NCBI GenBank assembly: GCA_009761415.1 | Contig: QUOL01000007.1 | Span: 1,674,001 to 1,738,000 of the forward strand | DNA: 64,000 nt | Direction: 5' to 3' | Origin: Sarcomyxa edulis | Taxonomy: Eukaryota > Basidiomycota > Agaricomycetes > Agaricales > Mycenaceae | Shown here: piece after piece, positions 1,285 to 64,000 of the stretch | Position numbering within the stretch: the first letter of the stretch is position 1 | Layout of the letters: each line of letters starts with the position of its first letter | Translations under genes and position numbers: made by a program | The notes under the pieces: generated by a model | The model's database searches: none | Told to the model about the DNA's origin: nothing | The model's input: the letters and a program-made list of their open reading frames with translations, nothing else

Positions 1285-3108
1285 TTAGAAGAATGAGAGT
1301 GGCAAAGCCAGTATTAGTATGGAGACAAATGCAAGGCCGGTAAGTATTAAGGAGGAGGACAGTGACAGACTACAGCCAGGCTCGGTGGCGGTGCAATTAC
1401 TACACACTGCGCCTGCTAAAATGCTTTTACACGTCGGCGGCTGCGCGGCGTTGCTTTAAAAGGTTTTTGTAAATTTCAAGGTGTTCAATATTCGTTTCAT
1501 ACAGTACTTCATGTGATATACATCTATGGCCAAACTAAAAGAAACTCGACGGTAATCTCTTCGATAACCTTCCGCTGGATTGGCTATCGTCGGACGACCG
1601 TGTATGAACCAAAGGAGGTCTGGTAGAATTTTCGGGGGGATTTCGTACAGGTGCGGTAATGAATGCATTAGGAGGGAAGGTGATAGATGCGGAAGATAGT
1701 GGAGGTTGCATCATAGGCAAAATAGAGCGGCGTCCCATCGCCGTCTCCTCATCCGAGTCAGCATCTGACTTCAGCGACATCACGGTCAAAGATTGACGTG
1801 AGCGACGGTACACCATGAGGGCGAGCCCACAGCAGTATGTTAGGACTACGTCAGATGTCAGTTATACGTCCACATCTCGATTTATGAAGATAAGCTCACG
1901 CAATACGGGAACGACCCAGCTAGCAACCAAGATGTATATGTTGAATAACTTGCAGACACCTTGTTTATCAGCGTCTGCAAACATAAGGGCTCAAACATGC
2001 ATTCCTCTGCAGTGCAAATGGTCTTACTCTGATCTGGACAACTGATTTTCGGATACCAGTACGCAAACGAGGCTGCCGTGCCTGAACATGAGGAGTCAAC
2101 TCCAATATGATTGTTAGCAGTAAGCTTGAAGTACCTATATGTGCCACTAGGAGAAACATGAACCGTGTGGCATCAAGCCATGCTCTGAATGGAAGCAACA
2201 TCCTGCAAACAAGATTTCAGCTACATGCCACACATGAACTCGCGAAAGAAACTGACAGTATAGGCAGCATGATCACCGTCATCGCGTTGGCTAGAAGAAT
2301 GACAACTACTAGAGATCCTGGTTGTGGGTGGCTTCAGCCTTGGAGACTAGGGACCAAAACAGACATGACTGACGTTCGGGACGATCTGAACTATCCCACT
2401 GCACATATATATCGAAACATAGAAATACAATCCAGAGAAAGCTGGTGAACATGATACAAGCTGCACTGGGTCAGACAGAGATGATGGCAAGCAAGTCGAG
2501 CTACTCACAGAATGCGATATTTCTAATTTTTGAAAATACAGTTGAACCTTCCATGATGTCAACGTCGTGTCGACGGTGTCGTGAAATGTCGGATAAAAGT
2601 TACAAGGTGAGGGTCCTAGCCTTTCGATCTACCAGAGAATCGAAATGTGAGGTGGAGGGTCGAAACAAGGTGGACTAAGGCGTTCTCATGGTTATGCATC
2701 CTGGAGAACAAAGACCTCGAGGGCTTTGTGCAACTAAACTCTACTAAACTTCATTGTGGATCGGCAAACGCCGAGGCCGTTGGATATTTGAGAGTCCGCG
2801 GCGTCTACACGCGTACGCGTTCGTCTCCTCAAGAACGAGAATGGGCAATTCTGATTTTGAACTTTCGGGCTCTCAAAAGACCAAGCCATAGAATCAAAAA
2901 TTATGCCATATTGAGAAAACAGAACACAGGACGCTAAGTCTACAAGAGAATTGACGCGTACATATGTCATTTGTGGCTACTACTGGGACTGCTGTGTATT
3001 GTATGGAATATAAAAATCTCTCCCGAACAAAATTCCATTAGAGCGACCATGTCTATACATAGTAACATCAAGCTCCAAATTGCAAAAAGGCGTAGCATGA
3101 ACAGAAAC
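1285..3108. other. Unresolved stretch, possible membrane-protein exons on minus strand
   Basis: No gene model could be built with confidence. Minus-strand open segments contain hydrophobic runs that look like membrane helices: FMFLLVAHIGTSSLLLTII near 2170-2110 and DVVLTYCCGLALMVYRR near 1850-1795. The second is followed by a Ser/Pro-rich tail to about 1535. Candidate splice signals exist (for example a TTTGCAG acceptor near 2203). This could be a multi-exon membrane protein with a disordered C-terminus, or a decayed gene. I recognise no family. Confidence 0.3.
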
Positions 3109-4573
3109 TTACTTGACTTTTAGATGGTTTTGCAATGAGTAACTTGCCATCTTATCGTTGCAGCGCGAACAACACAGAAGCGTGGTATCAGAGTAAAATG
3201 ATGAGTTTGGGATCTGCGGAGGTTTAGAGAGTCCTGTAAGATTTGCTTCGGCCTTTTCTTCGCTGGAAAGTAATGTCCAGGTCATACTGTAACATTTCTC
3301 ATTGAGCATATGTACCATCTTCCAAACATGGACGTGAGTAACATCCCCACAGTTAGATTTGGGTTCATATATCCTACCGCTTTTCTCCATCCCATATAGG
3401 ATGGTTCCAGTGGATGGCGCTCGGTGCATGCTGTACACTCGAGGATCAGATCGGCCTCGTCCATCTCCTGTGGGGTGGCAGTTTTAGGATCGAATCCACA
3501 AGTTTTGATCAACCGTGAAACGTGAGGAAAGTTCTCGAGATCGGGCCAAAAAATGCCATGCCTGTAGTTCCAAGGTACAACTCCCAGCCTTATAAAAGGG
3601 ACTTGATCATCACGAAGTTTGTCTCCGCCCCAACCAAAAGCGTCCTGGAGCGATATTGCACATTCGTGTGTGAGGACTTCAGGGTACGCTATATGCATTG
3701 TGGGACATCCTGAGCAGGTAAAATAAGTGGTTACCAACCAGAGGTGGGATAGGTCCATTTCCAAGTCGGAGAAACGTCTCCGTGCGCGACCGTCATTCCA
3801 GATTTGTACCAGTTCGGCGTCTTTGGATCTACGCCACTCTTGAGCGAGCTGGGGAAGTGTAGCTAACAGCTCGGCGAAGTCGTCGATTGTGACATCTACA
3901 TCTGCAGGGGTGTCTTCGACGATGGACTTGACGTTAGCCATACAATAAATGTCGGCTGCTCGAGGGAGTATTTCGTGGGAATCGAGTCTGGTATCTGCAT
4001 ATTTTTGCAAGATTTGCAACGAGTGCGTTTCTCGATTTGCTCAAGACGCTCATCACAGATACGGCCTGTCTTGATGTTCTCCATAAACTGGATAAGGGTC
4101 GGCTTGATTTTGTTCCATACTACACACACACATGATCAGCAGAGATCAAATAGGTCAGAACAACATGCTTACGCACTTCGAGGTGTGAGATTTTGAGGTT
4201 GGTGAACGAGATCTTGCTTCTCAAAGTCCAGGGGATTCATGAGGGCGAGTTCATCGGCCCATCCTTTCGATACGGGCTTTCAGCAAAGTGCAAAGTGATG
4301 TGCGCACTGTCCGAACATACCAAGCGCTTTTAACCTGTGAATGATACTATTATATGTTAAGGACATGTTTCTGGCATAATACAACATGAGTACTCACGCT
4401 TCTTTTCTCCTTTGTATCACGTCATCTGTATTCTCTACATCTTTAGCACTTGCCGTACTAGGTTTCCTGGGTCTGGAGGTCTTCTTCACTCGGCGCGTAT
4501 TCTTTTGGATGGCGATAGAATCTTGCGAAAGACTATACTTCTGAAGGCGGGCTGATTGTCGTCGAACTGACAT
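3109..4573 (-). CDS. Agaricomycete-expanded zinc-binding/F-box-like family protein
   Basis: Multi-exon gene of unknown function. The ATG at 4573 begins MSVRRQSARLQKYSL, a basic N-terminus of the kind common in this Agaricomycete family. The middle exon carries DERLEQIEKRTRCKSCKNM. The largest exon (4019-3360) contains LAELLATLPQLAQEWRR-like helical sequence, TCGFDPKTATPQEMDEADL and the cysteine pair CTACTERH. The last exon ends in WTLLSSEEK, CSRCNDK and LQNHLKVK. These Cys pairs and the terminal His suggest zinc binding. The junction near 4010-3900 needs either a 42-base or a 53-base intron, or hides a frameshift. The F-box label rests only on general resemblance to Agaricomycete F-box proteins, and no clean F-box was seen. 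Confidence 0.5.
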
Positions 4574-5121
4574 TGGTGTGAACGCGGTTAGACTAGCAAA
4601 AAGACAGACGGACACAAGTGCAGGGAAAAGGAACTTGGCAGAAGCCTGACGCTCATACTGCTAGATATAAGTTCTGTCTGGCTTCTACAACAAAGGGCTA
4701 TTTGTTCCGGCTGTGGGCGACAGTAGCGGCGCGCATAGCCTCATCGAAACAACAATCCTTTGTTTTGAGTAGGATGTTGTCCGAATCCGTGATGGTCATG
4801 AGAAAGGTTTCATCCCACGACACCGACTTGTCCGTACTGTCTTTTTAAAGTAGCAGGTAAGTCAGGTAGACAGCAAGCTACCTCGAATTCCACGGTATCC
4901 TCTGGAGAGCTCCCGAGGAACAAAGATAGACTGCGAGTGCACCAAACGCGCATGTGTTTGAGAAGGACCAAGGCTCGGTAGACGTTGAGACGCGATCAGA
5001 GGGGAGACATTCGCAAAGGATATCTGGACCTGGATGCGCATGAATGACAGACGCAGAATGGGAAGTAATAAGCAGTACAATAGAAATACAACATAATGTG
5101 TCGAGAAGCAAGCGTATGCAC
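4574..5121. other. Intergenic
   Basis: Presumed promoter of the minus-strand gene ending at 3109 and 3' flank of MIS12. Short open frames on both strands have no recognisable content. I see nothing further. Confidence 0.4.
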
Positions 5122-6062
5122 CTAGATCGTCTTCGTTGCTCTTAAATCCATCTTGACACCTTCGGTCAACTCAAGCAGCGCCCTTAGGTCTTCAGCACTT
5201 CCAATCTCTTCTGCCCTTGCACTGACCGAATCTATTCTTGAACCTCCTTCGCCTTGCGCCCTCGACTTTGCTACCAACTGCGCCACGGCCCAATTTAGAT
5301 ATCCAGTCTTGCTGGTCTCCCACTGCCGTTTCCCCGGTTCGGTGAGTTGGAACTGAGTCAGGTTTGTGATAGAGGCTGGGTCGAGAGGTGGTAACGATGC
5401 AATGCCGTCGTACATGGAAAGAAAGGATTCAGGGAGGCGTTCCAGCACGTCCATGCTTGGTGATCGCAGGAAGGAGAGTCGTTCAAGACGTTTTTCGGCG
5501 CGTTCGCGTTTGATGTTAGACTTAGTGAGGGCACGGGAGTACATCCGCTTCAGCCGCCGTTGCTATAAGGTCCAATCAGTCAAAATTACGAAAACAACGA
5601 AAATCAACGCACATTCTCGATCTTCTTTCGCAGTTCTTCAACCTCAAGCATCAGCTGCTGCTCCCTTTCTGGTGTCTGAGTGAGATCTAGCCCCTGTTGA
5701 TGTGGTAAGACAAGAGGCAAATTTGGCGGGATGGCGAATATGTTTCGAAGTGACCAGGCTTCGAAAAAGTCGAAGGCAAAGTCGGTGTGGTATTCGAGAA
5801 GGGTTTGAAAGGCCACTAGACCTTGTTCTACCTCTTGGGTACTATCCCACTCCCCTTCGCCTTCGGGAACAAGGCGTTTCTCGGCCCAACGCTCCACGAA
5901 TCCCTCCATGCCATTCACAGTGTCGGTGACTGCATTATTAGCGATATTGATGATGTCGTCAAGCAGAAGTTGTGGTGAGAATCCAAGGATCTCTGGTAAA
6001 AGAATAGGAGGAACTGGCTGAGAGGGAACCAAGTCCGTGGCAGATTGAGCACTTCCAGTCAT
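5122..6062 (-). CDS. MIS12: Kinetochore protein Mis12/Mtw1
   Basis: Mis12/Mtw1 is a core subunit of the MIND/Mis12 kinetochore complex linking CENP-C to the KNL1 and NDC80 complexes. The first exon (6062-5604) holds the family signature LLPEILGFSPQLLLDDIINI, followed by NAVTDTVNGMEGFVERW and an acidic segment. It ends in a coiled coil (ELRKKIENVR) that continues across one short intron into RRLKRMYSRALTKSNIKRER. The C-terminal exon contains FQLTEPGKRQWETSKTGYLN and coiled-coil sequence. Predicted length is about 295 residues, normal for fungal Mis12. The ATG at 6062 is the only sensible start. Identification rests on the N-terminal motif and the overall helical pattern. Confidence 0.85.
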
Positions 6063-6134
6063 GAGTGAGAATTGAGGCAGCAGGCTAGCCGCTAAAGCCT
6101 ACACTGGCACAGTACACAAACAGTACAAGAGGAG

Positions 6135-6167
6135 GACGTGACAAGGACGTGACTAATCGCGACGTGA
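6135..6167. promoter_or_regulatory. Three direct GACGTGA repeats upstream of MIS12
   Basis: GACGTGA occurs at 6135, 6146 and 6161 within the 186-bp gap between MIS12 and the end of the cystathionine gamma-synthase gene. The first two are 11 bp apart, about one helical turn. They lie 73-105 bp upstream of the MIS12 start codon and could be a bZIP/bHLH-type operator. No function is proven. Confidence 0.35.
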
Positions 6168-6248
6168 AGTCACATGTCGCGTTGCATATCGGAGTCCATT
6201 TATTCTACGTCTCTCCCTTCAGTAGTGCTACCCTCTCCCTCTATTCTA

Positions 6249-8129
6249 TTAACTAGAGTTTTCAGACTCTGCAAAGTCTACAGAACGCCGGAAACACTCT
6301 AATAACGTCTCCCTTGTCTCCATCCCGACGCTGACTCTTACGATGTCCTCACCAACTCCATACTGCTCTGCCCAGTCGAGTTCTTTGAAATGCGCCAAGA
6401 TGGTGTATGGGCACGCCAGTGTAAAGTTTGTTCCCAAGGAAGGGCCTTTCGCACAAGGCAAAGTATCGAAGAAAGTCTCCGCCGCAGTATGAGAGATGAA
6501 CGTGATCGAAAAAAGGGGCCCAAAATTATCGTCCTTTCCGGCACGGCGAACCATGTCAAGATTCCTGCGGGTGACCCACTCGGGATAAAAGACATCCTGA
6601 ATGACAAGACGAGACAGCTCTGATGTAGGCATGCCACTAGCTTCTGCAAACGACCTCGAACGGGAACGCAAAAAATGACAAACCTCTCGCGTGTTTTTAT
6701 TGATAGCGTTCACTCGAGAGGAAAAATTCCTCGAGTTGAGCTCCATTTGTATAGCGTCGGGCGCAAAATAATCGTCAGCGTATGTCGCTTTCATGATAGA
6801 CTTCAGAATATCATAATGATGTGATGCAGGATTAAGTATGAGGCTACGAATCTCATAATCAAAACCGGAAGATGGAGCTGGAGATCATACGTCTGAGACG
6901 TACCTCCCACCCATGACGTCCGCGTTTCCGCTGAAGAGCTTGCTCAAACTGGTTGCAATGATATCGGCGTAATTTGTCAGATCAATATTGACAGAACTGC
7001 CGACCGTGTCATCGACAATTATGAGGAATCCGTAGTCGTTGGCTAATTGGCGCAATCGTACAAGGTCTGATGATTGTAGCAGTGGATTAGATGGGCATTC
7101 GCAATATAATGCTGAGATAGTTTGGGGATTATTTGCGGAGATCAAGAACTCCTCGAATGCGGCAAGGTTTGCGTCCGGATCGTGTCCGTAGAAGTAGCAT
7201 CCTGGGCCCCATTTCTGCAGAATTTTCAGGGTGTCGGTGTACGGGAATCTATGCGGGTTGGGTAGGTTCGGTGTGATATGTAAACCAATAAGACGAGCTC
7301 ACCCGAAACAGACTGACTTGTAGCCTGGCTTCCAAGTCATCGTCAATTGATGTGCATGCCAAATCGCGGACATTCCAGAAGGGTAAAGCCAAACATCGTT
7401 TTGAGAAATGGTCTGGCGGCCTAGATTAGGAATATGACATTCAGGGACCTCCTCTCCGCGGACCGCAAGTGTGGCAATCCTAGCTTTCAACCGAAGTTTC
7501 GCTGCATCGGCCAATTTTTGGCGAGCATGGTGATGTAGAAGCGCTGAATATCATTTCAATTTCTGAAGAAGACCCATTGACACTGTAATTGAATACAAAC
7601 CAGAATCATCATCGGAGGAGATGGCTGAGATACAAGCTTCGGCGTAGCGGCTAGATATGCCCATCCCCGTATTCTGCCAAAACGCCTTGGCAGTACTCCA
7701 GTTTTCAGACGGGAACAGCACACAGTGAAGAGACAGGTGTCTGTTTTCAAGATCTTTGGGTGACACACGGCGATGGAGCTGGCTCGGAGAGTGCTGCTGA
7801 AGAAACAACACGCATTCTTCGGCGATTAACTTTGTAGGGAACAACATACAAAGTTCGCCTATAGTTCCAAACCGTTCCAAGAGGATGCTCGCCAGCTAAA
7901 TAGACCCAGCGTAGTGTCAGTGATGTAGATATCGACTTTGGGGTAGATACAAACGTACCTGTTGTATCAATTTGTGTACGAAGAACCTCGGATATCCAGT
8001 GTCCATTTTCTCGACAGTGTGTCGATCTCCAGACGCCCACCCGATATTATCCTCCCAAGTTGGGAGCGAGACGGAGAGCGCATGTGGGTTCAAAGGAGGG
8101 ATAGACGCACCGAGCGTGGAGGGTAGCAT
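6249..8129 (-). CDS. STR2: Cystathionine gamma-synthase
   Basis: PLP-dependent enzyme of the Cys/Met metabolism family that joins cysteine to an activated homoserine to give cystathionine in methionine synthesis. The N-terminal exon (from the ATG at 8129) reads LPSTLGASIPPLNPHALSVS and continues LPTWEDNIGW, then TGYPRFFVHKLIQQ, typical of the large fungal enzyme. Later exons contain YPSGMSAIWHAHQ (cofactor-binding region), CECPSNPLLQ, DDTVGSS and ATSLSKLFSGNADVMGG. In the last of these the lysine of SLSK is the expected Schiff-base residue. The C-terminal exon (6249-6794 region) carries VGMETRETLLECF. At least five introns are present. The start was chosen by alignment to the conserved N-terminus; the in-frame extension upstream lacks an ATG. 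Confidence 0.9.
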
Positions 8130-58825: not shown

Positions 58826-59121
58826 CAAACCAATTCTAGATCCAAACGTCTGTTTTCATGGCATTTATCTGTCGAACGTATCGTCCACCATATTGGCCAA
58901 GGCATGTACGCCGCATTTCTGTGCCGTTGTGATGAGGACTGCGGTGCTAGGAGTAGATGGGCTAGACTCCTAAGTGTAGTTCGCCTCTAGGGGGTAAGGT
59001 GACGTTTTCTCGGAGGGGATTTTACGTAGCGAGAAATCCTAATGCCCAGTGACTTGTGTTTGGATAATGTGTCCGTAAAACGGTGGTGAGGTGGGTATGA
59101 GATGATGAGGTGTAAGGTAAG
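58826..59121. other. Flank of the repeat element
   Basis: No coding signal. Contains one TGTCCG. The border between host DNA and the element cannot be placed here, because the matching part of the right arm lies outside the window. Confidence 0.3.
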
Positions 59122-59470
59122 CTTCGGACTTGTAGGTTCGTTCTCGGTAGGCCGTTTAGAGGCTTCGGACAGCTATAGGTTCGTTCTTGGAAAACCTACG
59201 AAGGCCTCGGACAGCTTTCGGAGAGCTGATCGATGCTTCGGACGGCTTATAAAACGTCTTCGGAGAGCTATCGAGAGCTTCGGACAGCTATAAGTTCGAT
59301 CTTGGAGAACCCTCGAGGGCTTCGGACAGCTTTTGGTGAGCTGACCGATGCTTTGTATAACTATAAAACGTCTTCGGAGAGCTATCGAAGGTTTCGGACA
59401 GCTCTGAACTGATTTCGGAGAGCTTCGAGGGTTTCGGACAGCTCTGGACTGATTTCGGAGAGCTACCTTT
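59122..59470 (+). repeat. Tandem array of TTCGG(A)CAGCT-type repeats
   Basis: The 11-mer TTCGGACAGCT or close forms (TTCGGAGAGCT, CTCGGACAGCT, TTCGGACGGCT) occurs about a dozen times. The array has a higher-order unit of about 115 bp starting at 59164 and 59279, and a following start at 59393. It then shrinks to a 40-bp unit (59393 and 59433). It lies immediately outside the visible left arm of the inverted repeat. This looks like subterminal repeat arrays of DNA transposons, which bind transposases. Confidence 0.75.
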
Positions 59471-59634
59471 GTTCCGGGGGTGGTACTGCTGGCTGAATCA
59501 AGTCCTTTTCTCTTTGTTTGACCGACTCCTGTAATCGTTTCCTTGTCTCGGTTTCAGAAGTATGAGAAAGGGATAGAATTCCTATAGAGAGTGACTGGGT
59601 AGTTGGTCGATTCGGGTGTGTTCCTCTGGTTCTC

Positions 59635-60675
59635 GTCCACACTTGTTCTATCTACCGTTCTCCGTATCCTATCCTACTTTATATATGAATTCCTTCCCTG
59701 TCCTTGCCTAATTCTTCACCCCGAGTGCCATCCCAAGGTCCCCGAGATCTCCAATGATGAAACAGATCCGGTATTGGTTTTGATGTGTCCGAACCTCGCT
59801 CAGTGTGAAAGGTTAGGGCCTGAGGTGTTTTCTGAAAGCGTTGCAAGGTGAATTTGTGAAGGGATGAAACATGTCCGAGTGAGCAGGATGATGGGGAGCT
59901 TCCGATAGATTTTTCCAAGATGCGACGGCCAAAGTTGTCCGAGAAGAGTGAATTTGATGTGGGTTGCTAGGCGGAAACCTGTAGTGTCTTTGTTAGCGGG
60001 CGATACCTCGCTTACAAGTGCTGTGTCATGTGATAAACACAGAGGGAAGAATATTCCGTAGCACCACTTGGTCAGGGTGGACGGAGGTCTTAATGAGGCG
60101 TCCAGATGCATGGAAAGGTGTGAATTGAGATCGCAATGTAAGGGGAATATGTCCGATTTGATAGGAAGAACAGCTCAGGGCAGCAAGCATCACGTTGGCG
60201 GTATGTCGACTGGTGGCAATGTTTTATCGGTGAAGTATCTCTCGATGAGGTCTTCTAGAGGTGAAAGGGAGCCTGCTGAAACGATTTGGGATCTGTCCGA
60301 AGGATCTAGGGGGCTGCGGAGAGGTGATCGAGTACATTGGGCCTTCGGTCAGGTGAAACGACGATAGGGAATTGGGTTCTGGCGGTAGATTTCCTTCGGA
60401 GAAGTTGTTCGTGTGTGATTTCAGGTATTCCAAAACGTTCTGAGACGTGACCGAAGGCGGGTTAGCGTTTCGTGAGTGGATGAAGAGGCCGCTTTCGGGG
60501 AGGAACCGTCAAGTAGTGGGTACTTGGTGTCTTTCAGTGTCCGGTCATTCGAAAAGTAAGTCGTTTGTGGTAATACCACCAGTATCTCTGTAGTTAGCTA
60601 TGTCTGGGGAGTCGCATAAGAGTAGGTTGTTGTATAGTTGTCGATTCCTTGGCTGGGGATGCTGGCATCCTCACA
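59635..60675 (+). repeat. Left arm of long inverted repeat
   Basis: Pairs with 62960-64000 in reverse complement at about 98% identity (about 21 mismatches by eye, mostly transitions). It contains TGTCCGA at 59786, 59872, 59936, 60150 and 60294. A plus-strand frame with ATG at 60110 runs to 60367, but its conservation in the other arm only reflects the near-identity of the arms. Confidence 0.9.
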
Positions 60676-60782
60676 CTTCCCCCTAACTTTTAAATATCGA
60701 CCGTCCCCGGTCGATCATCCGGAGGGCAAACACAACAACGTGTCCGTGACCGAAACAGGGCAAGGACGACCGGCCAAGGACC

Positions 60783-60788
60783 TATAAA
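60783..60788 (+). promoter_or_regulatory. TATA box of ORF1
   Basis: TATAAA 52 bp upstream of the ORF1 ATG, within the first 110 bp of the unique core. Confidence 0.55.
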
Positions 60789-60834
60789 TTCCAAGGTTAA
60801 GACAGCCAGAGCTTTCCTGAAAGCAACAAGACAA

Positions 60835-61773
60835 ATGGATCCCATAGCAAAAGAACTCTTCTTTACGCGCTGCCTCGATCTAGACGGGATAGATGGCGAT
60901 ATTACGATGGCAACTTTCCTCGGATACCTGCGTAACAATATCCGTCCCATGGTTCACCTAGTTGTTAGCTGCATTTTTCAGGATGCAGTGGCGGACGTTC
61001 TCCTTCCGGGGTTCTCGAGTCACGGTGTATACACGTTGAGAAAGCACGTTAAAATCCTGTGCCAGCACATGGTGAGTGCGTGTGCGCCTTTCAGGGGGTC
61101 CGTGCTAATTGCGAAGGTTAAGGTATTCATGCTCAGACTTAGATGGGTACTGAAGGGGAGGTGCATGGACGATACCACGGAGCCGTTTCCCAAGGAAGCA
61201 GTGACCGCCGTTTACCAGGTGCAGCGATGTGTCCACGTCGTAGGGTTTTCCGGGGATCAGGACGAGGACGAGGCACATAAGATCGACGTTATCTTGTACT
61301 TCATAGAAGAATATGCCCGCCGATCGACATTTGGCGTCGCTTTCGATTACATCGAGGCGGACCCGCGTGGTCGGTTCCATGCGCATGCCGTGTTGAAGAA
61401 GCATCCATACAGCGGTCCCAGGGTACATCGAGATGGTACGATCAGTACGGACAGGGGCAACAGCCTCGAAGGGGAAGAGAATCCTGCTAACAACGAAGAC
61501 GAAGGCATATCCGTCATAAGTATTGCAACGGACGACGAGGACGAAGAAATGGAGGTGGCCGAGGTAGAAAGGGCCTTGTCCGGTAAGAATTCTGACACTT
61601 TAGCGGTGCGGCAACGAGCTGATCGGAGAGGTACAGTCCAGCCACTCGCGAGCTTGGCAACACACGGGGCATTTCGCCTGCTTTTGGAGACGTTATCCGA
61701 AGAGGAGAGGAACGGTTTGATTGGCGGGGCGGCGATTATCGAACAGGGACTAAACAATTTGTCGGGAGCATGA
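60835..61773 (+). CDS. Orphan ORF1 of the inverted-repeat element (312 aa)
   Basis: Intronless frame of 312 residues beginning MDPIAKELFFTRCLDLDGID. The first 200 residues look globular: FLGYLRNNIRPMVHLVVSCI, SSHGVYTLRKHVKILCQHMV, LRLRWVLKGRCMDDTTEPFP, DVILYFIEEYARRSTFGVAF and GRFHAHAVLKKHPYSGP. Then comes a disordered acidic linker (ATDDEDEEMEVAEVE) and a C-terminal helical end FRLLLETLSEEERNGLIGGA. I recognise no family. Codon use is GC-rich and the frame is the longest in the region, with its own TATA box. It may be distantly related to ORF2 through the block around YTL. Confidence 0.7.
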   Translation: MDPIAKELFFTRCLDLDGIDGDITMATFLGYLRNNIRPMVHLVVSCIFQDAVADVLLPGFSSHGVYTLRKHVKILCQHMVSACAPFRGSVLIAKVKVFMLRLRWVLKGRCMDDTTEPFPKEAVTAVYQVQRCVHVVGFSGDQDEDEAHKIDVILYFIEEYARRSTFGVAFDYIEADPRGRFHAHAVLKKHPYSGPRVHRDGTISTDRGNSLEGEENPANNEDEGISVISIATDDEDEEMEVAEVERALSGKNSDTLAVRQRADRRGTVQPLASLATHGAFRLLLETLSEEERNGLIGGAAIIEQGLNNLSGA

Positions 61774-61833
61774 GGCGGCGAGAAGGGGGAAGGGTTCGGA
61801 GAGGTGATCGAGGGCATGCAGTCATCATGTACA

Positions 61834-61839
61834 TATAAA
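61834..61839 (+). promoter_or_regulatory. TATA box of ORF2
   Basis: TATAAA 35 bp before the ORF2 ATG. The 16-mer CGGAGAGGTGATCGAG at 61797-61812, just upstream, also occurs in the left arm at 60317-60332 (and so in the right arm). Confidence 0.55.
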
Positions 61840-61868
61840 CGACGAGTCCTTTCGTGTTGAAAATCGAA

Positions 61869-62453
61869 ATGCCTGCCCGTAGTATGCAAATGGCTCGCGA
61901 GAGGCTCTGCGACTACTTCATGACGCTGAACGTCCCGTCCTTCATTCGACCCGTCTTCTATCCGCACGAGGGCTTCGATGGATTCTTCCGCAAACGCCTT
62001 CGTATGATGTTCGGTGTCATCCAGGCGACGCTTCCCCATAGGGTGACAGCATTTCCCGATGACACCGATAGCGTTATCGGGCAGTATACGCTGTCGAGGC
62101 GGCTTATGCGGTTTTTCGTCGAGAACGTTGTACGGGCTTCCACCGTTTTTCAGCGGGGCAACGCAGAGATACTAAAAAATCCTTCTGCGCAGGAACTCAT
62201 CGTTGCATACCGTCAGCGGGCCAGGACCGATGCCAACGCCGCCGAATTTAAAATTCCTTCAGAGGTATCCCGTATGATGGAGTTCAGTCTTATCGTTTAT
62301 GACAAGGTCGGATTTCACGGGGACTGGGCCCTCAGCAGCGTCGGTCAGAGGAGGGAAATGCTTCAGTCACTAAAAGATGAGGCCGACGTTAACGCTTCAT
62401 TGACTGGCGGGGCAAAGGAGTATCCCGAATTTGAGGACCTGGTGTTCTGGTAA
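61869..62453 (+). CDS. Orphan ORF2 of the inverted-repeat element (194 aa)
   Basis: Intronless frame starting at the ATG 61869 (MPARSMQMARERLCDYFMTL). It contains VPSFIRPVFYPHEGFDGFFR, KRLRMMFGVIQATLPHRVTA, DSVIGQYTLSRRLMRFFVEN, VVRASTVFQRGNAEIL, NAAEFKIPSEVSRMMEFSLI, VYDKVGFHGDWALSSVGQRR and an acidic end EYPEFEDLVFW. It looks fully globular and alpha-rich. No known domain recognised. Same strand as ORF1, 95 bp after it, with a separate TATA box rather than an operon-like overlap. An in-frame extension upstream to 61854 lacks an ATG. Confidence 0.68.
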   Translation: MPARSMQMARERLCDYFMTLNVPSFIRPVFYPHEGFDGFFRKRLRMMFGVIQATLPHRVTAFPDDTDSVIGQYTLSRRLMRFFVENVVRASTVFQRGNAEILKNPSAQELIVAYRQRARTDANAAEFKIPSEVSRMMEFSLIVYDKVGFHGDWALSSVGQRREMLQSLKDEADVNASLTGGAKEYPEFEDLVFW

Positions 62454-62959
62454 GCAGGCGCCGTCGGTCTCGTTCTTTGGGCCCCTCAGAGGGATACTAA
62501 TAGTCGGAAATTCGCATTTCAGAACGCACGCGTAGCGGGGAAGCTTTCCTGGATGTGACCGAGGGGGTTTTTGTCGTCGTTGGTACTTTAATGGGTAAAC
62601 ACTCCTTTCGCGTGCCGTGTTCAGAGATCTTGTAGTTTATGGAATGCACTGTCAGTCCGGAGGGCAACAACGATCTCGGGCAGCCTCCCAACCTCCTTTA
62701 TAAAGGGTACCGATGTCCGATGATTCCACCCGCTGTGCGCAGACATTTGAATCGCGGACAGTTCGTAACTCCGTCAGCGGCTCTTGATGAGAGGAAAGTT
62801 CAGAGGGGAGGCGAGTGAGATGAGAACGGAGAGAGGTTATTAATGCTTTCAGAGCTTTTCTTCTTTACAATTTCGCTATATCGCTCAGTGGCCTGGTCAT
62901 CATTTCGTTCTTCCGTAGCCTCGCAGATATGCGATGTCAGGATGATCTTCTCGTCCCGT
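62454..62959. other. Core region downstream of ORF2 with palindromic TATA
   Basis: 506 bp with no convincing frame. The perfect palindrome CCTTTATAAAGG (62695-62706) contains a TATA box usable on either strand, and TGTCCGA occurs just after it (about 62715). Possibly a promoter reading outward into the right arm. Confidence 0.45.
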
Positions 62960-64000
62960 TGTGAGGATGCCAGCATCCCCAGCCAAGGAATCGACAACTA
63001 TACAACAACCTACTCTTATGCGACTCCTCAGACATAGCTAACTACAGAGATACTGGTGGCATCACCACAAACGACTTACTTTTCGAATGACCGGACACTG
63101 AAAGACACCAAGTACCCGCTACTTGACGGTTTCTCCCCGAAAGCGGCCTCTTCATCCACTCACCAAACGCTAACCCGCCTTCGGTCACGTCTCAGAACGT
63201 TTCGGAATACTTGAAATCACACACGAACAACTTCTCCGAAGGAAATCTACCGCCAGAACCCAATTCCCTATCGTCGTTTCACCTGACCGAAGGCCCAATG
63301 TACTCGATCACCTCTCCGCAGCCCCCTAGATCCTTCGGACAGATCCCAAATCGTTTCAGCAGGTTCCCTTTCACCTCTAGAAGACCTCATCGAGAGATAC
63401 TTCACCGACAAAACATTGCCACCAGTCGACATACCGCCAACGTGATGCTTGCTGCCCTGAGCTGTTCTTCCTATCAAATCGGACATATTCCCTTTACATT
63501 GTGATCTCAATTCACACCTTTCCATGCATCTGGACGCCTCGTTAAGACCTCCGTCCACCCTGACCAAGTGGTGCTACGGAATATTCTTCCCTCTGTGTTT
63601 ATCACATGACACAGCACTTGTAAGCGAGGTATCGCCCGCTAACAAAGACACTACAGGTCTCCGCCTAGCAACCCACATCAAATTCACTCTTCTCGGACAA
63701 CTTTGGCCGTCGCATCTTGGAAAAATCTATCGGAAGCTCCCCATCATCCTGCTCACTCGGACATGTTTCATCCCTTCACAAATTCACCTTGCAACGCTTT
63801 CAGAGAACACCTCAGGCCCTAACCTTTCACACTGAGCGAGGTTCGGACACATCTAAACCAATACCGGATCTGTTTCATCATTGGAGATCACGGGGACCTT
63901 GGGATGGCACTCGGGGTGAAGAATTAGGCAAGGACAGGGAAGGAATTCATATATAAAGTAGGATAGGACATGGAGAACGGTAGATAGAATCAGTGTGGAC
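62960..64000 (-). repeat. Right arm of long inverted repeat (cut by window end)
   Basis: Reverse complement of 59635-60675. The match is still running at base 64000, although mismatches become denser in the last 40 bases (five by eye), so the true arm end may be near or beyond the window edge. Confidence 0.9.

Follow-up and report, generated by a model that had tools for sequence, protein, structure and literature searches.

At the end of a 64,000-nt stretch of the genome of the basidiomycete Sarcomyxa edulis (assembly GCA_009761415.1, contig QUOL01000007.1; C38:1674001-1738000, here called the window), two long inverted arms of nearly the same sequence enclose two genes, ORF1 and ORF2 (open reading frames 1 and 2). 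What kind of element carries such arms, and how did they come to face each other? An earlier note, made from the sequence of the window alone, took the arms for the inverted ends of an undescribed mobile element. Searches of the whole assembly (35.6 Mb, 40 contigs) led to a different answer: the locus very probably consists of two copies, in opposite orientation and one nested in the other, of a single Ty3/gypsy-type long terminal repeat (LTR) retrotransposon with an antisense gene array, the arms being LTRs of the two copies. The inverted arms are thus ordinary, and the new part is a strict CpG-centred target together with the conserved antisense array.

Identification of the inverted arms as LTRs

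Within the window the arms (59635-60675 and 62960-64000) are 1,041 nt long and 98% complementary with no net indel, and are separated by a spacer of 2,284 nt, in agreement with the earlier description. The length of 1,041 nt was set by the window end alone: in full, the left arm begins at position 58928 and the right one reaches the window-equivalent position 64707, each arm being 1,748 bp in length and the two 97.8% identical. The LTR ends are TGTGAGG...CATCACA. Patterns of 17 and 21 bases taken from these ends were found at 111 and 85 places of the genome with two mismatches at most, some of them in a related family whose LTR tips are the same, while the reversed patterns, used as control, were found at 1 and 0 places, excluding chance for the arms. 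When 601 bp of the arm were searched against the genome, 88 candidates were obtained, 40 of them scored, and 21 of these 40 places are located in same-strand pairs either 9.9-10.05 or 15.6-15.8 kb apart. The further arm copies that the earlier note proposed to look for are therefore present, and its view of a mobile and recently active element is supported.

Self-comparison of C38:1730001-1770000 revealed the order LTR A, 2,284 bp, inverted LTR B, 5.9 kb in inverted orientation, LTR C, 2,284 bp, 5.9 kb and LTR D. LTR A is 100% identical to LTR D and LTR B is 99.9% identical to LTR C, the identity being 97.8% between A and B and 97.9% between C and D. LTR A (58928-60675, sense strand minus) is the 3' LTR of the resident copy, and the window from 58928 to 62955 corresponds to this LTR plus 2.28 kb of the same minus-strand copy. 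LTR B, the 5' LTR of the second copy (sense strand plus), starts at 62960 and occupies the window to 64000; beyond 64707 it is followed by a sequence resembling a primer-binding site (PBS). The joint to this second copy is CCGT (62956-62959), a 4-bp site of the type used elsewhere by the element, and its partner, the reverse complement ACGG, precedes LTR C (C38:1744607-1744610). No target duplication lies outside both arms, as would be expected of an element that they terminate: the CCGT outside LTR A (58924-58927) is paired with a CCGT after the distant LTR D (C38:1756315-1756318). Since the stretch from A to D is flanked by CCGT on both sides and the internal joints are CCGT and ACGG, A-D represents the resident copy and B-C a second insertion inside it in the opposite direction, part of the locus having presumably been inverted afterwards.

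Full copies and derivatives lacking gag and pol

A full copy of 17.5 kb (C25:95784-113285) encodes gag and pol in antisense to ORF1 and ORF2, which fixes the sense strand of the element. Read in this direction, the order is 5' LTR, PBS-like sequence, gag, pol, about 6 kb of antisense genes, a run resembling a polypurine tract (PPT) and 3' LTR. The gag frame (878 codons) includes an aspartyl protease, with a DUF4100 match below its cut-off, and the pol frame (1,270 codons) carries RNase H and an integrase zinc domain, its best relative in PDB being Ty3. Gag followed by protease, reverse transcriptase (RT), RNase H and integrase, the order of Ty3/gypsy elements, is found in this copy. The PBS-like sequence TGGAGCCCACCGCGAGGG follows the 5' LTR in the copies inspected, and the PPT-like purine run AGTTAGGGGGAAG, as expected for an LTR retrotransposon, adjoins the 3' LTR on the minus strand of the window (60676-60688; recognised by eye). 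The integrase C-terminal chromodomain, a mark of chromoviruses, gave no Pfam match up to E 10 in a search whose filters drop most weak matches. A linear plasmid was rejected because gag and pol identify an LTR element.

The search of the genome with pol gave 44 rows. Twelve of them, the query copy counted, are stop-free and at least 98% identical over at least 1,265 of the 1,270 residues, and six further long rows are 77-84% identical. A third group of relatives, about 29-53% identical, is located on C16, C13, C4, C12, C22 and C21. We compared nine stretches, among them CD and AB, which together make up the window locus. Six (CD, AB, E34, C11, C6 and C5) gave a match to neither gag nor pol, a gag remnant of 50 residues is left in C8, E34L has gag with the terminal part of pol, and C25 has both genes. 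The earlier note had seen neither transposase nor polymerase; this holds for the window but not for the element, because the window copies are gag-pol-less derivatives while other copies encode both genes. A 14-kb copy at C34:15756-29752, with identical LTRs, gag and only the end of pol, is intermediate between the full and the gag-pol-less form.

The two LTRs are identical in E34, E34L, C6 and C5, and agree at 1746 of 1748 positions in C11 and 1747 of 1748 in C8, indicating recent movement of the gag-pol-less derivatives. Presumably these were mobilised by enzymes supplied in trans: they would move by reverse transcription, with gag and pol provided by full copies.

Target sites

The direct TG...CA LTRs are accompanied by identical 4-bp duplications, as in Ty3/gypsy elements, in 21 of the 39 flank pairs. 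Two of these places, C21:68649 and C28:26963, share flanks, so that 20 of the 21 duplications are independent. Among the other 18 pairs, 9 have element sequence on one side and 9 have differing outer flanks, which suggests recombination between copies. In the sample of flanks, which is non-random as it consists of places listed by the pattern searches, CG occupies the centre of the 4-bp target in every one of the 69 outer flanks, 64 of which are distinct, the outer bases being variable. CpG accounts for 6.0% of the dinucleotides in the window and 7.3% in element copies. Such an invariant CpG target provides a sharp handle on site choice by a retroelement integrase.

The antisense gene array

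The region from pol to the 3' LTR contains an array of five divergent and mostly detectably related genes, ORF1 to ORF5, and one further gene resembling a zinc cluster. ORF1 (60835-61773, plus strand) and ORF2 (61869-62453, plus strand) encode 312 and 194 amino acids when read without splicing, and TATAAA is located 5' of each (by eye), as noted before. The earlier description of both as intronless is probably wrong, for each likely carries an in-phase intron (61072-61116 in ORF1 and 62130-62192 in ORF2), and the predicted spliced products are 297 and 173 amino acids long. Among the nine aligned copies, the unspliced reading is intact in 7 for ORF1 and 3 for ORF2; after removal of the putative introns, both genes are intact in 8. 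The putative introns fall at one alignment column in ORF1, ORF2, ORF3 and ORF5, and about 3 columns off, beside a gap, in ORF4 (by eye, the donor site of ORF3 being also picked by eye). As introns of antisense genes would not be spliced from the sense genomic RNA, they would stay in this RNA and persist through each round of reverse transcription. Within C25:97001-112000, two runs of C in the ORF2 of the C25 copy are each short of a single base; this resembles base-calling error left unpolished on a short contig more than decay.

That the two genes are of no recognised family was confirmed with Pfam and a protein database. Pfam gave no match for ORF1 and one match, below cut-off, for ORF2; the RavJ peptidase match of ORF2 (E 0.0049; 16.9 bits, the cut-off being 26; in 1 of 11 members) was treated as chance. 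The ORF2 profile gave two matches among solved structures, with E 0.77, and the protein database gave 1, 2 and 4 matches for ORF1, ORF2 and the alignment, none of them named. P0006 is a piece of ORF4. The predicted structures (mean predicted local distance difference test score 40.9 for ORF1 with 2 sequences and 49.0 for ORF2 with 11 rows) are mostly helices of low confidence, too poor for fold comparison.

Relatedness within the array was examined by shuffling, with ORF1 and ORF2 in spliced form. For 7 of the 10 pairs, at most 4 of 1,000 shuffles reach the observed score, with z values of 16.3 for ORF2-ORF3, 6.6 for ORF1-ORF5 and 5.5 for ORF1-ORF4. With ORF1 and ORF2 unspliced, the score was reached in 2 of 300 shuffles for ORF1-ORF2 and in 148 of 300 for ORF2-ORF4.

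Selection appears to keep the array genes intact. The ratio of nonsynonymous to synonymous change (dN/dS) is 0.08 for spliced ORF1 (7 gap-free distinct copies, with 5, 5 and 28 variable sites at the three codon positions), about 0.10 for unspliced ORF1 (9 distinct among 10 gap-free copies, 12 found) and 0 for spliced ORF2 (6 gap-free distinct copies), in which all 12 variable sites are at the third position. Seven exons of three further array genes gave 0.00-0.21, some on few distinct copies (ORF4 exon 1: 2 of 9, with 3 changes), and six frames of two intergenic stretches, used as control, gave 0.52-0.97 on 4-5 distinct copies, the pooled pairwise counts being non-independent throughout. This selection may act on the full copies and be passed on to the derivatives, which does not imply that the derivatives themselves need the array.

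By eye, the cysteine pattern of the further antisense gene resembles that of the fungal Zn2Cys6 cluster, and the Pfam match, at E 0.028, is below cut-off. Two sequences of this gene were compared with ORF1-5, and at best 12 of 300 shuffles reached the score. Among seven non-autonomous rows, the distinct types of its first exon differ at a proportion of synonymous sites (pS) of 0.21-0.51 with dN/dS of 0.13-0.23, the pairs AB-C11 and E34-C5 being of the same or nearly the same type. Compared with the gag-bearing copies C25 and E34L, the protein is 32-34% identical and synonymous sites are saturated, allowing no ratio. Between C25 and E34L there are few changes, with a ratio of 0.96, and the claim of constraint therefore excludes their version of this gene. 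In the cargo adjoining the gene (AB rows, bases 1601-7200), 107 of 112 comparisons of 400 bases are at least 96% identical. Since the divergent types lie beside cargo so alike, they seem to be old alleles shuffled among otherwise similar copies.

A second, diverged family of the array

Genome searches with spliced ORF1, ORF2 and ORF5 gave 54, 79 and 82 rows, and on this basis we rejected the possibility, which would have spoken against a mobile element in the earlier account, that ORF1 and ORF2 are ordinary host genes. The rows form two identity classes, the main family at 76% or more and a diverged set, which for ORF1, ORF2 and ORF5 comprises 8, 8 and 9 places, respectively; no third class was seen among these rows, the LTRs being checked at some of the places. 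The diverged set is 37-47% identical for ORF1, 33-39% for ORF2 and 46-58% for ORF5 (61% for a short piece). Its matches break at residue 81 of ORF1 and residue 89 of ORF2, within 2 residues of the putative introns (79 and 87); the ORF5 matches overlap, with no such clean break. Stop-free rows make up 23 of the 25 full-length ORF1 rows and all 31 main-family first-exon rows of ORF5.

At the single diverged locus that was read, on C12, matches to ORF1-ORF5 occur in the same order and orientation as in the main family, and extra frames, judged by eye, resemble a sixth paralog. Likeness to a main-family copy at the DNA level is limited, over the stretch compared, to pieces of 67 and 28 bases. The pol near this array is 79% identical to that of the main family, and the LTR pair agrees at 1,890 of 1,890 bases. 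This member (C12:984683-1005290) ends inside LTR sequence of the main family (by eye), and its outer flanks, ACGG and TCGG, are unmatched yet CG-centred.

Origin of the inverted composite

A plain nested insertion suffices for everything inside the window. LTR A, ORF1 and ORF2 come from a resident minus-strand copy, of which the window includes this LTR and the adjoining 2.28 kb at the end of the internal region. Into this copy, at a CCGT lying between ORF2 and ORF3, another one integrated in plus orientation, so that its 5' LTR (B) now faces LTR A. Recombination of the two inverted 5.9-kb segments by an inverting crossover would subsequently give the outer order, and we consider this two-step route a fairly likely one for the outer structure.

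The same final order could be reached by autointegration, in which the cDNA of the element attacks itself at CCGT to form an inversion circle (LTR, a, inverted LTR, inverted b) that recombines into a resident copy. This also predicts the order of the parts, the pairing of A with D and of B with C, and the 4-bp duplication at the internal break. It requires, however, both a circle and its homologous capture, whereas nesting in the same cargo occurs elsewhere: the copy on C8 interrupts an ORF2 of this family. We therefore regard autointegration as unlikely, if still a serious candidate. Misjoining of repeat copies in inverted order during assembly is improbable: repeats of at least 1.7 kb at 98-100% identity are hard to assemble, and the C bases absent from the C25 copy resemble base-calling error, but at the internal junctions there is a target-site duplication of the type made by the element, unexpected from a random misjoin. 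A novel element of at least 4.4 kb with terminal inverted repeats and two genes, suggested by the geometry within the window alone, is scarcely credible, because the partner of LTR A in the target duplication is LTR D and not B, arm B continues into the PBS-like and further element sequence, and arm places elsewhere form the same-strand pairs described above.

Several observations weigh against the nested retrotransposon with its intron-bearing paralog array. The Pfam RT core model found no match in pol, RT being assigned from PDB matches, and the one tRNA pattern used for the PBS-like sequence gave 0 matches for a priming tRNA. Window-by-window comparison with seven other copies gave mosaic haplotypes, with no separation of the crossover from the autointegration circle. 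For the array, the putative ORF1 intron ends in AAG instead of the usual pyrimidine-AG; ORF1 and ORF2 are broken even if spliced in one of the nine copies, C25; and similarity is not significant for three of the ten pairs, ORF1-ORF2, ORF2-ORF4 and ORF4-ORF5 (170, 288 and 219 of 1,000 shuffles).

Comparison with known elements and possible role of the array

The plant elements Retand, Grande and RIRE2 also carry antisense ORFs in the interval from pol to the 3' LTR (PMC7264820, PMC11963269). The element studied here shares with them this arrangement, which marks the Retand lineage, a long region between pol and the 3' LTR with ORFs of obscure role and, in the case of Retand, the occurrence of non-autonomous copies. 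In Retand, 97% of clusters are reported to have a single domain type, TRP28 (PMC11963269), in contrast to the five mostly related genes, the Zn-cluster-like gene, the putative introns and the fungal host found here. Boty/BcGypsy1 of Botrytis cinerea, also a fungal LTR element, carries the additional antisense gene brtn (Zhao et al. 2011, as cited in PMC7264820 and PMC8365987); as described there it is one gene, compared with an array of at least five here. Extra ORFs gained 3' of pol are likewise known (PMC5408684, PMC6431247) in bdelloid rotifer LTR elements with ORF3 and in Terminons; the ORF3 types listed are esterase, exonuclease, env-like, transmembrane and coiled-coil, whereas the present genes form an antisense tandem family with no Pfam match above cut-off. 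With respect to target choice, a preference for palindromic 4-bp sites is shared with Drosophila errantiviruses, for which PMC5408687 gives TATA, CGCG and ATAT in the gypsy, ZAM and Idefix subgroups, but in the flanks examined here the central CG is constant and variation is confined to the outer bases. Among the literature matches listed, from a search with subscription journals mostly outside its reach, no fungal antisense paralog array or CpG-centred LTR target appeared. What is distinct here is the largely paralogous, probably intron-bearing and constrained array in two diverged families, together with the invariant CpG centre.

Antisense ORFs near the 3' LTR being known in plants and at least one fungus, a related array with measurable coding constraint is now at hand, and two diverged families plus derivatives that keep the array without gag and pol make the role of such genes testable. 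The array might well encode accessory proteins that aid expression of the element or its escape from silencing, although we hold this tentatively. More speculatively, a fungal Ty3/gypsy lineage could have evolved its own antisense, intron-bearing accessory array of five or six tandem paralogs and a fast-diverging Zn-cluster-like gene, under purifying selection and kept by gag-pol-less derivatives, that would act in trans in counter-silencing or copy control, with an integrase accepting only CpG-centred sites, possibly tied to CpG methylation of host heterochromatin.

Tandem repeats within the LTR

Inside LTR A, short tandem repeats with TTCGGACAGCT and TTCGGAGAGCT units extend from 59217 to 59465 of the window, and the TTCGGACAGCT-like repeats may represent a regulatory array.

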